Shown in pieces: positions 2,943-25,328 of a stretch of DNA of 26,888 bases (positions are counted from its first letter, which is position 1; each line of letters opens with the position of its first letter). A program made the position numbers and the translations under genes. The DNA comes from a virus. The stretch spans positions 1 through 26,888 of IMG/VR virus record IMGVR_UViG_3300032223_001323; one strand, 5' to 3'. The notes under the pieces were generated by a model that did not search any database, was not told the DNA's origin, and saw nothing but the letters and a program-made list of their open reading frames with translations.

Positions 2943-3923
2943 ATGCTTGACTTTAATAATTTACCCACTAATCAGAAAGTCGATAGGCAAGTTTTTTATG
3001 CCAATACACCATCTTCTGTATCGCAAAATTGGGTTGCGTGGTTAAAACCGCGTGGCGTTAATTTTATAAAAATTCTTTGCCTTGCTGGTGGCGGGGGGGG
3101 AGGCGGCGGATTTGCAAATCCTGCTTTGGTTGGTGCTGGCGGCGGCGCTGGAGGTAATTCTTCTTCACAATCTATTATTATTTTTCCTGCTTGGTTATTG
3201 CCTGATTTGCTTTATGTATCAGTTGGTGTTGGAGGCGCAGGAGGATTAACTTCTACTACAGGTTCTAGTGGAGTAAATTCTTATGTTGCTATTTATGAAA
3301 ACACTACTGCAAATAATTTACTCACTTATGCAACTGCTGGCGCTGGAGGTAATGCTGCATCATTGGGTGGAGGTACTACATCACCTTCTGTTGCTTCAAC
3401 GGCAGCAAATGCATATATATCAATTATGGGGCAGGCTTTTGCATCTACCGTAGGTAACATAGGACTTGCAGGACAAAGTGGTGCTACTGGTGGCAGTGGT
3501 GCTGATGGTACTAATATTACTTTTCCAACTACGGGTTTAATTGTTACTGGAGGAGCGGGGGGTGGGTCTTATTCAGGAGGTGCTGGTTTTTCGGGTTATA
3601 ACGGTGGCGGAATTACTGGAGTAGGTGCGCCATTTCCTGCGACAACAATCGGCGGCTCTGGTGGTGGTATTACTGTAACAACAGGTGGAGATGGCGGGAA
3701 TGGTTATCAAATAATACCTAATTTAACATATTTTATAGGTGGTATGGGTGGTGGTGGCGCAGGAATAGCGGCAGGGGGATCAACATTATCTGATATAGGT
3801 GGAAAAGGCGGAAAAGGTTTTTACGGCTGCGGGGGTGGTGGAGGAGGTGGTGGTTTTACGGGTACAACAGGTGGTTTAGGTGGTGATGGCGGCGATGGTT
3901 TAGTAATAATTACTTCGTGGTGA
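2943..3923 (+). CDS. Glycine-rich tail adhesin, copy 2
   Basis: This intact 326-residue paralogue starts with LDFNNLPTNQKVDRQVFYAN and W-VAWLKPRGVNFIKI, then alternates glycine runs with variable aromatic or polar loops, and ends FYGCGGGGGGGGFTG ... LVIITSW. The glycine runs probably form polyglycine-II-like sheets that display receptor-binding loops, as in the adhesins of T-even-like phages; this is inference from composition. It begins three bases after the stop of copy 1 (TGA-AAT-ATG), with GGTGA as a weak ribosome site that overlaps the stop. It contains a run of eight G (3093-3100), a likely slippage site. The N- and C-termini are conserved among the copies and the middle is divergent. 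Confidence 0.75.
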   Translation: MLDFNNLPTNQKVDRQVFYANTPSSVSQNWVAWLKPRGVNFIKILCLAGGGGGGGGFANPALVGAGGGAGGNSSSQSIIIFPAWLLPDLLYVSVGVGGAGGLTSTTGSSGVNSYVAIYENTTANNLLTYATAGAGGNAASLGGGTTSPSVASTAANAYISIMGQAFASTVGNIGLAGQSGATGGSGADGTNITFPTTGLIVTGGAGGGSYSGGAGFSGYNGGGITGVGAPFPATTIGGSGGGITVTTGGDGGNGYQIIPNLTYFIGGMGGGGAGIAAGGSTLSDIGGKGGKGFYGCGGGGGGGGFTGTTGGLGGDGGDGLVIITSW

Positions 3924-14880: not shown

Positions 14881-14977
14881 TATGTTGAAACACGGCTAGG
14901 GTAGCTCCCGAAAAGACGATTCTTCACCGTCCTGCCGAAGTTTCTCTTGTGAAGATGACCAATGAAGTAAGGTTGTT

Positions 14978-21938: not shown

Positions 21939-22399
21939 TGACAATCAAGAAAGAATGGCTCTGTATGGCTCATGGCAAGTTTGAAAGTGCCAAAGCAGTG
22001 TGTCCAAAGGGCTGTACGACCGTAGAAAGACGGTTTTTTACCCCTACAAGCATCAAAACGTCCGGTAGAACCAACAATATTGATAAAACACTACAAATGC
22101 TGGCTGACGACTACAAACTGACCGACATCAACAACCAAAACGGTACTGCTGCTGTAAAACGCCCAGAACCAAGGGCTGTCAACCAGATGGAGCAAATGAA
22201 TCAAGCCATTCAGCAAAGATTTGGCGTAAATGCAGGTGGTGGATGGGGTGCAATGCCAAATCAAGGCGGTGCAAGTGCTGCGGCGCAGAATTTAGGTGCA
22301 TCTGGTGCTGTAGACTTGAACTCTGTCAAACAGGTTTTGCCTGATTGGAAGAAAAATGTTATTGTTCATGCGGCAGACCACAGCAAAATACCAACATGA
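21935..22399 (+). CDS. Head-module protein with N-terminal zinc-finger-like motif
   Basis: This 154-residue protein has WLCMAHGKFESAKAVCPKGC near the start (Cys10, His13, Cys23 and Cys27 in C-x2-H-x9-C-x3-C), then RRFFTPTSIKTSGRTNNIDK and TLQMLADDYKLTDINNQNG. The order 'C--HG-Fe----CP-GC ... ltp--i-s--T--iD--l--la-d--lTD--N' is one I know in unnamed proteins next to phage terminase and portal genes. The C-terminal half is rich in Gly, Ala, Gln and Asn. The stop overlaps the portal start. A packaging or head-assembly accessory role is inferred from position. Confidence 0.65.
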   Translation: MMTIKKEWLCMAHGKFESAKAVCPKGCTTVERRFFTPTSIKTSGRTNNIDKTLQMLADDYKLTDINNQNGTAAVKRPEPRAVNQMEQMNQAIQQRFGVNAGGGWGAMPNQGGASAAAQNLGASGAVDLNSVKQVLPDWKKNVIVHAADHSKIPT

Positions 22400-24021
22400 T
22401 TATTCCAAGCAACCCTGACCAACGTGAACAACTGTACCAAGAGGTATCCGAGAAATGTCTTATTTCTCGCAACGACCGAATTGCTCAGTACAGCACTCTG
22501 CGTTCATATTTTTTGTTTGGTGCTGGCCCTGAAGCCAGACTCGCCAACTACAACAAAATATTTCCACACATCGACACCCTCTCCTCCTTTCTCTTTGCCG
22601 CCGATACCACCAGATTTAGTATCGTTCTGGGAGCAGGTGTTAAAGCCGAAGCCGAGCACAAGAAAACTGGCCCACTGATTCGCAGACTCAACGACAAATG
22701 GTCTGACTCAAACGCCGACATCGTGATGGGTCAGGCAGTCAACTGGGCATTGGTCTACAACTCCATGTTCATCAAGCTGATTCAGCGTGGACGTGACACA
22801 ACACCGTACTTGGTTGACCCGTCATCCTTTGGCGTGTTGAGAGAAGACCAAACTCAACTGGACAAGCAAGAAGCGTTTGTACACACTTACTTCACTACTA
22901 GATCACAACTGGAAAGGGATTTGCATTCGCACCCTAACTTGAAATCCATCATGTCTAGGGTAAACGCTACCCAACAAGAGACGACACAAATGATGGCGGG
23001 TGTACAGCGAATCATTACGTCTCAGTTCTCAGGTGCAGGACTCAACCAAAATATGATTGGTAACGCCACAGCACCCTTGCAAAACACATTGATGTACAAG
23101 CCGAAGGTTGGCGAGGAAGTCATTGAAATGCAAGAGCTTTATGTTTGGAACGATGAGGAAAACGATTACCAGATTGTTACTATGGCATCTGGCGGCGTTT
23201 GCATATACGACAGAGCAAACTTCTTCTATCACGGCGAACACCCGTTCATTCAGATTTGCCCGAATCCTGCGCCTGATTATTTCTGGGGATACTCAGAGGT
23301 AGAGAGGCTGATGCGGTTGCAAGATATGCGGGAACACCGCATGAACCAAGTTTCAAACTTGTTGGACAGAGCAGCCGACCCACCCACCGCTTTGACAGGC
23401 TGGATGGGTTTGGTTGATGAAAAGAATTTTGCTTTGTCCAAGGTTGGCGGCGTGTTGTCCTCAAGTGAAATGGGAGCAAAAGTTGAGCAATTCAGACCCG
23501 TTGTCCCACCAGACACCTTTACCGAAATCAGAGAAATTGACCATATGTTCTCTGAGATGTCAGGAATCTCAAACGTGTTGTCAGGACGTGGAGAAACTGG
23601 TGTGCGGTCAAAAGGCCATGCCTCCGAGCTTGCACGACTCGGGTCGTCTCGCCCGAAGAAAAGAGCATTGGTCATTGAGGATTCTTTGGAAAACCTTGCC
23701 ACTAAGTATTTGAAACTTGACCAGCAACACAACCCTGACCCGCTGAGAACTCCTGATGGACAGGAATTTATTTCCGAGCAGTTCACCAAAGACTTCATGG
23801 TCAAAGTGGATGCTCACTCCTCAAGCCCTGTGTTCATGGAAGATTTGAAACATGACGCAACCGAATTGCTGAAAGCCAAAGCAATTACTCGGTCAATGTA
23901 CGTCAAATTGATTCATCCCCCGATGGAACAAGAAATCTTGCAAGAACTCAAAGAGATTGAGAAAAAAGAGGCAGAGATGGCTAAGTTGCAAGCCGCCCAA
24001 GCCCAACAAAAGGGTGCTTGA
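22396..24021 (+). CDS. Portal protein
   Basis: This 541-residue protein forms the dodecameric ring at the head vertex through which DNA passes. The start at 22396 overlaps the previous stop (ATGA); an upstream extension in this frame lies entirely within the previous gene. Portal-like features are an N-terminal region with LRSYFLFGAGPEARLANYNK, a WALVYNSMFIKLI strand with YLVDPSSFGVL, then GEHPFIQICPNP and FWGYSEVERLMRLQDMREHR (wing or crown helices), and SEMSGISNVLSGRGETG, typical of portals where a helix carries 'sG-p--l-G'. The C-terminus is a charged coiled coil. Length and position after terL fit podovirus portals. Confidence 0.8.
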   Translation: MIIPSNPDQREQLYQEVSEKCLISRNDRIAQYSTLRSYFLFGAGPEARLANYNKIFPHIDTLSSFLFAADTTRFSIVLGAGVKAEAEHKKTGPLIRRLNDKWSDSNADIVMGQAVNWALVYNSMFIKLIQRGRDTTPYLVDPSSFGVLREDQTQLDKQEAFVHTYFTTRSQLERDLHSHPNLKSIMSRVNATQQETTQMMAGVQRIITSQFSGAGLNQNMIGNATAPLQNTLMYKPKVGEEVIEMQELYVWNDEENDYQIVTMASGGVCIYDRANFFYHGEHPFIQICPNPAPDYFWGYSEVERLMRLQDMREHRMNQVSNLLDRAADPPTALTGWMGLVDEKNFALSKVGGVLSSSEMGAKVEQFRPVVPPDTFTEIREIDHMFSEMSGISNVLSGRGETGVRSKGHASELARLGSSRPKKRALVIEDSLENLATKYLKLDQQHNPDPLRTPDGQEFISEQFTKDFMVKVDAHSSSPVFMEDLKHDATELLKAKAITRSMYVKLIHPPMEQEILQELKEIEKKEAEMAKLQAAQAQQKGA

Positions 24022-24045
24022 CAAGGTTTGTAGATTTGATATATT
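24018..24045 (+). promoter_or_regulatory. Strong sigma-70 promoter over the portal stop
   Basis: TTGACA (24018-24023) and TATATT (24040-24045) lie 16 bases apart. The -35 box is consensus and the -10 box has five of six matches. The expected start is near 24052, giving a leader of about 268 bases before the first capsid-associated gene at 24320. Confidence 0.7.
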
Positions 24046-24068
24046 GGAGTTGCTGGGGAGCGGTGAAA

Positions 24069-24092
24069 CAGTTCAGCCGACCAATTGAACTG
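24069..24092 (+). other. Hairpin in the leader RNA
   Basis: CAGTTCA (24069-24075) pairs perfectly with TGAACTG (24086-24092) over a ten-base loop. It begins about 17 bases after the predicted transcript start, and no T tract follows, so it may stabilise the 5' end or form part of a regulated leader. Confidence 0.45.
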
Positions 24093-24120
24093 GTGCATTT
24101 ATGGACAAGGAAAACCTGCC

Positions 24121-24159
24121 ATGCGTAAAGCTAAACGCGGTCGTAAAAGCAAGCGTTAA
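24121..24159 (+). CDS. 12-residue Arg/Lys-rich peptide
   Basis: This very short ORF reads MRKAKRGRKSKR and stops at TAA. AAGGA lies nine bases before the ATG. Eight of twelve residues are Arg or Lys. It lies in the leader downstream of a strong promoter and 57 bases before a second tiny basic ORF. It may be a nucleic-acid-binding peptide (as the very small basic DNA-binding protein of microviruses), or a leader peptide whose translation controls the terminator downstream. Confidence 0.45.
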   Translation: MRKAKRGRKSKR

Positions 24160-24216
24160 TCCGCTTGTGACCATTCACAATTCACCCTTCCTTTCAAATT
24201 AATTTGGAGAACCATC

Positions 24217-24252
24217 ATGGCTCGCAAAATGAAACGTTCAAAGCGCAAGTAA
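24217..24252 (+). CDS. 11-residue Arg/Lys-rich peptide
   Basis: The ORF reads MARKMKRSKRK and stops at TAA, eight bases before the terminator stem begins. GGAG lies eight bases before the ATG. Seven of eleven residues are Arg or Lys. Its similarity in composition to the ORF at 24121 and its own ribosome site make translation likely. Its stop position would place a terminating ribosome on the left arm of the terminator. Confidence 0.5.
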   Translation: MARKMKRSKRK

Positions 24253-24259
24253 TGAGTAG

Positions 24260-24281
24260 GGGCTGAGTAAGCAGCCCTTTT
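24260..24281 (+). terminator. Intrinsic terminator in the leader
   Basis: GGGCTG (24260-24265) pairs with CAGCCC (24272-24277) over a six-base loop, and TTTT follows directly. A fourth G before the stem could extend it. This is a canonical, if short, intrinsic terminator located between the promoter at 24018 and the gene at 24320. Confidence 0.6.
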
Positions 24282-24308
24282 GATTGTTTATAGGGGACAA
24301 TCAAAAGG
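24276..24308 (+). promoter_or_regulatory. 12-base-pair alternative hairpin overlapping terminator and ribosome site
   Basis: CCTTTTGATTGT (24276-24287) and ACAATCAAAAGG (24297-24308) are perfect complements around a nine-base loop. The left arm takes two C of the terminator stem and its whole T tract; the right arm covers AAAAGG of the ribosome site for the gene at 24320. The hairpin therefore could exclude the terminator and at the same time block translation of the next gene. Confidence 0.6.
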
Positions 24309-24319
24309 GACACACAATT

Positions 24320-24874
24320 ATGTTTGAATCATACGGCAGTGCAAGTGTAAATACGGAAGGCAGAAAGCCAACGTATAGTATTATTTTGACAGCATTTACT
24401 CCTGCGGCTACCGCAACGGATTACTTTACTTTGTTAAATCCTGCCGCAAGCAACAAAATCTGTAGAGTAGAGACTGTGCGTGTTTGGGCAACAGCAACTG
24501 CCGCAACATCTGTAGATTTTTATTATTACAAAAGAATTACTGCAAATTCAGGCGGCACAACTACGGCTTTGACAAATAATATTTGTTATCACGATTCAAA
24601 TAATCCAGCACCATCTGGTGTGCCTGTTTCGTATTCAGCAAACCCATCATCAACTGGTACAGGAACGGTCATTCGTGCCAACCATGCGTATGTTGGATCA
24701 ACTGCCGCGCAATTATCTGTTACTGATTATTTTTATGGGGTTAGAAATGGTCAAGCATTGGTGTTGCGTCCCGGCGAATTGTTTGCGGCAAACTTCAATG
24801 GCGCGGCAGTACCAAGTGGCTTGAGTATCTTTTTAGAAGTCGAATGGACTGAAGAAGTATTGAGTTACACTTGA
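24320..24874 (+). CDS. Capsid-associated structural protein candidate
   Basis: This 184-residue protein starts at the ATG at 24320 (AAAAGGGA upstream); an extension to 24284 in the same frame would run through the hairpin. It has no signal peptide or Lys-rich part. The sequence alternates apolar and Thr/Ser/Asn residues in beta strands (YSIILTAFTPAATATDYFTL, CRVETVRVWATATAATSVDF, SIFLEVEWTEEVLSY). The beginning, 'i-l-~~tPaatatDyf-L-np', and the 'R-~V~V-a-a' strand are found in virion proteins of unknown function in freshwater phages. With scaffold and capsid following, a head decoration or head-fibre protein is likely. Confidence 0.55.
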   Translation: MFESYGSASVNTEGRKPTYSIILTAFTPAATATDYFTLLNPAASNKICRVETVRVWATATAATSVDFYYYKRITANSGGTTTALTNNICYHDSNNPAPSGVPVSYSANPSSTGTGTVIRANHAYVGSTAAQLSVTDYFYGVRNGQALVLRPGELFAANFNGAAVPSGLSIFLEVEWTEEVLSYT

Positions 24875-24920: not shown

Positions 24921-25328
24921 ATGGCTGCAACACCTGCTTCTCCACCGAAAATTGGTTCGTTGACCTTCCCTACGATGGCGGCGAATACAGATACTGGTAT
25001 CACTGCCTATGCTGGTGGTGGTCAAACTAACGCAACTCTTTTGACCGCGCAATTCAACAAAGTAACAGTAGTTGTAACTGCGGCAGATTCTGTAAAGTTG
25101 CCCCAGATTAGCGCAGTGCCAAATACATTGGGTGCAGTTGGTTCATCTGTAATTGTTAGAAACGCCGACAGTGCAGACTCATTACAAGTTTTTGGTTCTG
25201 GTACAGACACCATCAACGATGTGGCTACTGGTACAGGTGTTGCTGTTGCCGCAGGTAAAACAGCAATCTTTATCTGTCATAGCTGGAACGGCACTGTTGG
25301 CAATTGGTACATGGTGTTGTCAGCATGA
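24921..25328 (+). CDS. Small beta-rich virion protein candidate
   Basis: This 135-residue protein has AAGGA before its ATG. It is Ala/Val/Thr/Gly-rich with alternating strands: ATLLTAQFNKVTVVVTAADS, then VKLPQISAVPNTLGAVGSSV and VIVRNADSADSLQVFGSGTD, and ends GKTAIFICHSWNGTVGNWYM. The 'D-v-LP-a--G----V-N-s---l-vfg--~~tin' pattern is that of a small beta-sheet domain common in phage head or tail surface proteins. It lies directly after the decoration candidate and overlaps the next gene (ATGA). Surface decoration is probable but not proven. Confidence 0.6.
   Translation: MAATPASPPKIGSLTFPTMAANTDTGITAYAGGGQTNATLLTAQFNKVTVVVTAADSVKLPQISAVPNTLGAVGSSVIVRNADSADSLQVFGSGTDTINDVATGTGVAVAAGKTAIFICHSWNGTVGNWYMVLSA

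Follow-up and report, generated by a model that had tools for sequence, protein, structure and literature searches.

Between the portal gene and the following 184-aa gene, which has no family match, i.e. at 24018-24320 of the window (the whole 26.9-kb virus record analysed, which carries a phage head cluster), lie two micro-genes whose small basic products are conserved family-wide and under purifying selection, in a conserved gene position and among RNA stems that covary (Table 1). We regard them, with moderate confidence, as translated micro-genes for basic nucleic-acid-binding peptides that serve in head assembly or DNA packaging and are controlled by RNA structure. According to this proposal, a small transcription unit would run from a promoter overlapping the portal stop codon through a structured leader, micro-gene 1 and micro-gene 2 to a terminator. 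By virtue of their charge, the peptides would most likely bind nucleic acid while heads are assembled or DNA is packaged, as helpers of the protamine or protein J kind, and the surrounding RNA (the leader and start-codon hairpins, the pseudoknot found in relatives, and hairpin C) most likely sets the peptide level, possibly with feedback from the peptides onto their own level.

Table 1. Features of the micro-gene unit and its two neighbouring genes (positions in the window)
Feature	Position	Strand	Remarks
Portal protein gene, upstream neighbour	22396..24021	+	Pfam PF23899 SU10_portal, 44.3 bits (cut-off 30)
Sigma-70 promoter TTGACA-16-TATATT	24018..24045	+	Overlaps the portal stop codon; 11/12 consensus, extended -10
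Leader hairpin CAGTTCA/TGAACTG, invariant GCC in loop	24069..24092	+	Ensemble probability 0.995
Hairpin AUGG/CCAU, takes in ribosome site and start codon of micro-gene 1	24101..24122	+	Ensemble probability ~0.9
Micro-gene 1, MRKAKRGRKSKR, 12 aa	24121..24159	+	Counterparts in nearly all relatives; pN/pS 0.35
Pyrimidine-rich TTCACCCTTCC between the micro-genes	24181..24191	+	Similar in several clade members (alignment)
Shine-Dalgarno GGAG of micro-gene 2	24206..24209	+	Read in the sequence
Micro-gene 2, MARKMKRSKRK, 11 aa	24217..24252	+	Counterparts in nearly all relatives; pN/pS 0.31
Intrinsic terminator, end of the micro-gene unit	24258..24281	+	Stem 24258-24279; -12.8 kcal/mol in isolation
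Hairpin C, 12-bp stem CCCTTTTGATTG/CAATCAAAAGGG, 11-nt loop TTTATAGGGGA	24275..24309	+	-20.2 kcal/mol
Next gene, 184 aa	24320..24874	+	No family match; missing at this place in L006, L007, L011 (alignment)

That the tiny ORFs are genuine protein-coding genes is well supported by their enrichment, by the absence of acidic residues and by a pN/pS of about 0.3. In 105 loci, the 700 bases following the portal stop codon were scanned for ORFs starting with ATG, 8-17 aa long, with a Lys+Arg content of 40% or more and preceded by a ribosome site: 192 such micro-ORFs were found in 69,388 bases, versus 6 in 1,566,660 control bases of the same loci. They make up nearly all (192 of 203) of the short ATG ORFs with ribosome sites in the post-portal regions. 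One to three are present in 94 of the 97 relatives for which enough sequence is available; of the three other loci, two (L103 and L108) carry basic ORFs of greater length (21-25 aa), and in the third (L050) a match to the pattern described below lies further downstream. The 83 distinct peptides consist almost purely of Arg, Lys, Gly, Ala and Ser (median Lys+Arg content 62%, median net charge +7), and Asp and Glu are absent from all of their 1,037 residues; typical forms of the micro-gene 2 counterparts are MRRKGRKARR, MARRKGRKGRK and MRKGRKGRKSRK. Most of the nucleotide differences fall at third positions, and the resulting pN/pS values (0.35 for micro-gene 1, 0.31 for micro-gene 2) indicate that purifying selection acts on the amino-acid sequence. 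The two tiny basic ORFs pointed out in an earlier sequence-only reading of this DNA are thus enriched far beyond chance in the relatives. The notion that they are chance ORFs in a structured non-coding leader, to which the mere 11-12 codons of each lend some colour, is very improbable: it is contradicted by the enrichment, by the pN/pS of about 0.3, by the 83 distinct peptides devoid of acidic residues and by the context-free pattern search described below.

A GGAG, AGGA or GAGG sequence precedes 189 of the 192 micro-ORFs of the relatives, and the Lys and Arg codons used are the common ones (CGT/CGC), AGA and AGG contributing only 24 out of 740. Because the ribosome sites are strong and the codons common, the micro-genes would appear to be strongly expressed; that they are translated is an inference. 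One relative, L036, displays four tiny basic ORFs in tandem at 3248-3612 (11, 24, 20 and 24 aa), the last of which overlaps the start of the MSVPPEIL gene.

A search of IMG/VR with the portal gave 43 relatives, and a profile search at least 579. The peptide family was also sought irrespective of its surroundings, by running a degenerate pattern, 24 bases long, for KGRK(G/A/S/T)R(K/R)-stop over all IMG/VR viral contigs. The pattern occurs in 120 stretches, nearly all of which adjoin this type of portal and capsid, so that detection of the family is independent of context; in some of these phages the portals are only 25-29%, and the capsids 32-39%, identical. In the distant phages, the micro-gene lies either 0-9 nt (L252, L240, L249, L282, L263) or 54-75 nt (L221, L239, L251, L289) before a Pro/Gly/Met-rich gene of ~135-145 aa, which itself precedes the scaffold-position and capsid genes. 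In the most distant phages, where the distance is 0-9 nt, no terminator separates the peptide gene from the next one. Even in genomes with the portal gene on the opposite strand, the peptide gene remains grouped with the ~135-145 aa, scaffold-position and capsid genes, which makes the capsid block, and not the portal, the partner of the micro-gene. A portal on the strand opposite to the terminase and/or the capsid block, as found in L244, L221 and L289, is an unusual arrangement for a head cluster.

The gene immediately downstream of the micro-genes differs among relatives, the downstream genes being head-cluster genes. In the window, two genes without family matches (24320-24874 and 24921-25328) stand between the micro-genes and the Pro/Gly/Met-rich gene; they are possible candidates for decoration proteins. 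Elsewhere in the window, at 14889-14955, an int-alpA RNA is matched in Rfam with 38.4 bits, above the gathering score.

Nearly every member of this large and abundant freshwater phage lineage carries two or more micro-genes, which, with 10-14 codons, are too short to be called by ordinary gene finders. The annotation of the two named genomes, MW202825 and MW202753, omits the micro-genes and places hypothetical genes on the strand opposite to them (L045 7779-8039 and L046 4740-5038); these are probably spurious calls. The search of cultured phages by portal returned only two records, both metagenome-assembled, and the collections searched contain no cultivated virus of the lineage. Since no relative of the portal was found in 84,980 prokaryote genomes, no prophage or host link emerged. 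The capsid search extends to Myxococcus phages Mx8 and Mx9, whose capsid proteins are distantly related; comparable tiny genes are absent from both, hence that capsid type can do without the peptides.

Their location bears on what the peptides do. Being small, strongly basic and encoded in the capsid cluster, they have the traits expected of peptides that bind packaged DNA, and they may reside in or on the virion. The position in the head cluster is circumstantial only, because peptides so short and simple can bind many things. They could, for instance, target the host cell, with ribosomes, RNA or polymerase as binding partners, the head-cluster location then serving only to ensure late and strong expression. 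Host machinery is a frequent target of small phage proteins (review PMC11323111), and the strong ribosome sites would suit such a role; the place inside the head module is, however, conserved and retained in distant lineages, and the peptides have no hydrophobic or structured part, which makes this explanation unlikely. Within the packaging proposal, a more specific version can be formulated, which we consider rather doubtful: protamine-like peptides of 10-14 residues would condense DNA or guide it into the head and would titrate onto their own mRNA via the pseudoknot or the leader hairpin, so that their supply follows free DNA. Few protein genes on which selection can be demonstrated would then be shorter than these of 10-14 residues.

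The RNA context of the micro-genes was analysed in the window and its closest relatives (the window clade). The predicted transcript, 24052-24330, folds better than 200 out of 200 shuffled sequences (z = -3.4). The strong sigma-70 promoter, 5' hairpin, intrinsic terminator after the second ORF and 12-bp hairpin listed in the sequence-only reading are all present at the positions of Table 1 and all recur in the closest relatives. The promoter TTGACA-16-(TATATT or AATAAT), including its 16-nt spacer, is kept in the eight clade members checked. A single conserved leader always precedes micro-gene 1 in this clade; its hairpin is shorter or bulged in L007 and L011, and the sequence of the following hairpin, at 24101-24122, is nearly invariant, the exception being ACGG in L002, L003 and L012. 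The covariation that was to be expected of genuine stems was found: in alignments whose register was set by hand and which comprise only four to seven distinct sequences, compensatory changes affect 4 of 7 pairs of the leader hairpin (4 distinct sequences), 5 of 8 pairs of the terminator and 3 of 8 core pairs of hairpin C. The leader pattern was also run against the 84,980 prokaryote genomes: none of the 85 matches had the leader or a comparable basic micro-ORF. A long-range pairing between CAGCC of the leader and GGCTG of the terminator arm was considered and is unsupported, because the arm is altered in L002 while the leader is not. In one sub-clade, a third tiny basic ORF (MM[T/Y]PRKAARSRKSCR) stands between promoter and leader (L002 6651-6698, L003 4392-4439, L012 1104-1151).

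The sequence-only reading had interpreted this arrangement as an attenuator-like leader in which the 12-bp hairpin competes with the terminator; the RNA elements proved to be real and to covary, and the attenuator interpretation itself is unsupported. In a classical transcription attenuator, the supply of Arg- and Lys-tRNA would decide between termination and readthrough into the head genes. The order of the elements, leader ORFs and then a terminator, is the right one, and the terminator is the best terminator-like site in the 7.9 kb scanned. When folding was repeated with ribosome masking, a ribosome placed in silico on the stop codon of the second ORF of the window melted the terminator, in line with the report that translating ribosomes repress terminators located just after stop codons (PMC4824070). 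However, the distance from stop codon to terminator is not conserved: it is 6 nt in the window, L001 and L041 only, and 12-23 nt in the others. The same folding experiments revealed no antiterminator in hairpin C. The overlap with the terminator amounts to a few bases in the window, and to little more than the U tract in several relatives, so that 'competing' was an inaccurate description; in the sampled ensemble, the probabilities are 0.65 for the terminator, 0.95 for hairpin C and 0.61 for both together, which is about the product of the single probabilities. In an RNA ending at 24285, only the terminator can form. Hairpin C, which is formed only 3' of the termination point and coexists with the terminator, can therefore not act as the mutually exclusive antiterminator of an attenuator. 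Nor is tuning by the translation of Arg/Lys codons, as had been suggested, borne out, as these codons are common, i.e. neither regulatory nor rare, and no regulatory-codon or stalling site is apparent. Finally, what is conserved is the peptide sequence and not a run of codons, the peptides persist in distant phages where the terminator is lacking, and the downstream gene varies among relatives. Control by attenuation is, in view of all this, quite improbable. The idea that hairpin C mainly masks the downstream ribosome site was also discarded, since L006, L007 and L011 retain the hairpin although the site lies outside of it there.

In other clades, the position after micro-gene 2 is likewise taken by a hairpin, which usually stands immediately ahead of a TTGAC promoter. 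Two ungapped sets of these hairpins, of 11 and 9 sequences, have 98.7% and 100% of their cells paired; compensatory changes are found in 6 of 7 pairs, and the covariation score was reached by none of 500 shuffles. L013, L017, L045, L046, L086, L089 and about 60 others carry this strongly covarying hairpin 15-50 nt after micro-gene 2, with a stem of 6-10 bp and an A-rich loop of 9-17 nt (ATAAAAT or AAAATA); it usually ends 0-5 nt before the TTGAC box and is the equivalent in place of hairpin C. A second structure, present in many relatives outside the window clade, is an H-type pseudoknot before micro-gene 2, AGGG-TAT-GGCTGCTT-C-CCCT-(5-10 nt)-AAGTGGCC. Both of its stems covary (e.g. GGTTTCTC/GAGAAACC and TCCTGCTC/GAGTAGGG), and 35 of 76 distinct spacers score above the 95% level of shuffled sequences. 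Lying between micro-genes 1 and 2, just 5' of the ribosome site of the latter, it reads GGGTRTGGCTGCTTYCCC...AGTGGCC; carriers include L045 (7872-7908), L046, L051-L059, L073, L079, L222, L085 and L083, and it is also found upstream of a micro-gene in L036, L242, L293 and L316. Rfam gave no match to the micro-gene region of the window up to E = 5 (riboswitches, leaders and the downstream-peptide motif included), and none at gathering scores to the micro-gene loci of 12 relatives. The pseudoknot and hairpin C are thus covarying structures absent from Rfam, and the pseudoknot is undescribed.

These structures form the basis of the main rival to the packaging proposal, which takes up the binding of the peptides to RNA that the sequence-only reading had mentioned as a second option. 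The peptides would be RNA-binding regulators with an arginine-rich motif, acting in trans or in cis in the manner of lambda N: by recognizing hairpin C, the leader hairpin or the pseudoknot they would control termination or translation of the head genes, a virion function being absent or secondary. Short basic peptides commonly recognize RNA hairpins, and suitable targets are at hand, namely a covarying hairpin directly after micro-gene 2 with conserved loop bases (AGGG is kept in the loop of hairpin C throughout the window clade), a covarying pseudoknot directly before micro-gene 2 in relatives, and the single conserved leader before micro-gene 1 in the window clade. On the other hand, the RNA elements change from clade to clade (a leader in one, the pseudoknot in others, neither of them in the L013 type), whereas the peptides are kept, and in distant phages the peptide gene is only 0-9 nt away from the next gene. 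Moreover, N-like antiterminators possess a second part that contacts the polymerase, for which 11 residues leave little room. We therefore hold this explanation to be possible, if on the doubtful side, and keep that of peptides acting in head assembly or packaging.

Several known systems resemble the micro-gene unit in part. The leader-peptide attenuators (of the trp/his type, or the macrolide-inducible one of mef/mel, PMC4335068) likewise combine a promoter, a short ORF, a terminator and other stems; the micro-gene unit differs from them in that it has no exclusive antiterminator, no run of regulatory codons and no fixed downstream gene, and in that its peptide is under selection of its own. 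With lambda N and boxB it shares a short arginine-rich peptide and a nearby RNA hairpin, but the micro-peptides have no transcription-activating part and the hairpin loops are of 11-15 nt instead of the 5-nt GNRA-like type; no boxB-like hairpin with a GNRA loop was found upstream of terminators to be controlled, the hairpins of the window clade coming after the terminator. The downstream-peptide and glnA glutamine riboswitches also feature a structured leader before a short ORF in aquatic phages; here, no Rfam match was obtained even at E = 5. Another parallel is protein J of phiX174 and the small basic DNA-binding proteins of microviruses, which are also very small, very basic and non-enzymatic and are encoded in the capsid cluster. 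Proteins of the J type have about 25-40 aa, belong to ssDNA phages and were shown to enter the capsid with the DNA, whereas the micro-genes code for 10-14 aa, are found in two or more copies per genome in dsDNA tailed phages and have products that are candidate virion components. T4 gene 32 is under autogenous control through an mRNA pseudoknot (PMC535899). This pseudoknot precedes the gene's own ribosome site, as does that of micro-gene 2 in relatives; the differences are that gp32 has ~300 residues, that the window clade has a leader hairpin and no pseudoknot, and that feedback is here only proposed. If the micro-peptides are made, few conserved proteins known from tailed phages would be smaller, and the peptides would point to either a protamine-like step in the assembly of dsDNA phages or a very compact RNA-binding regulator. 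Fremin et al. (2022; cited in PMC11323111) reportedly compiled a catalogue of small unannotated phage genes found by comparative evidence; the micro-genes, which are unannotated short phage genes recognized in the same way, are akin to those of that catalogue.
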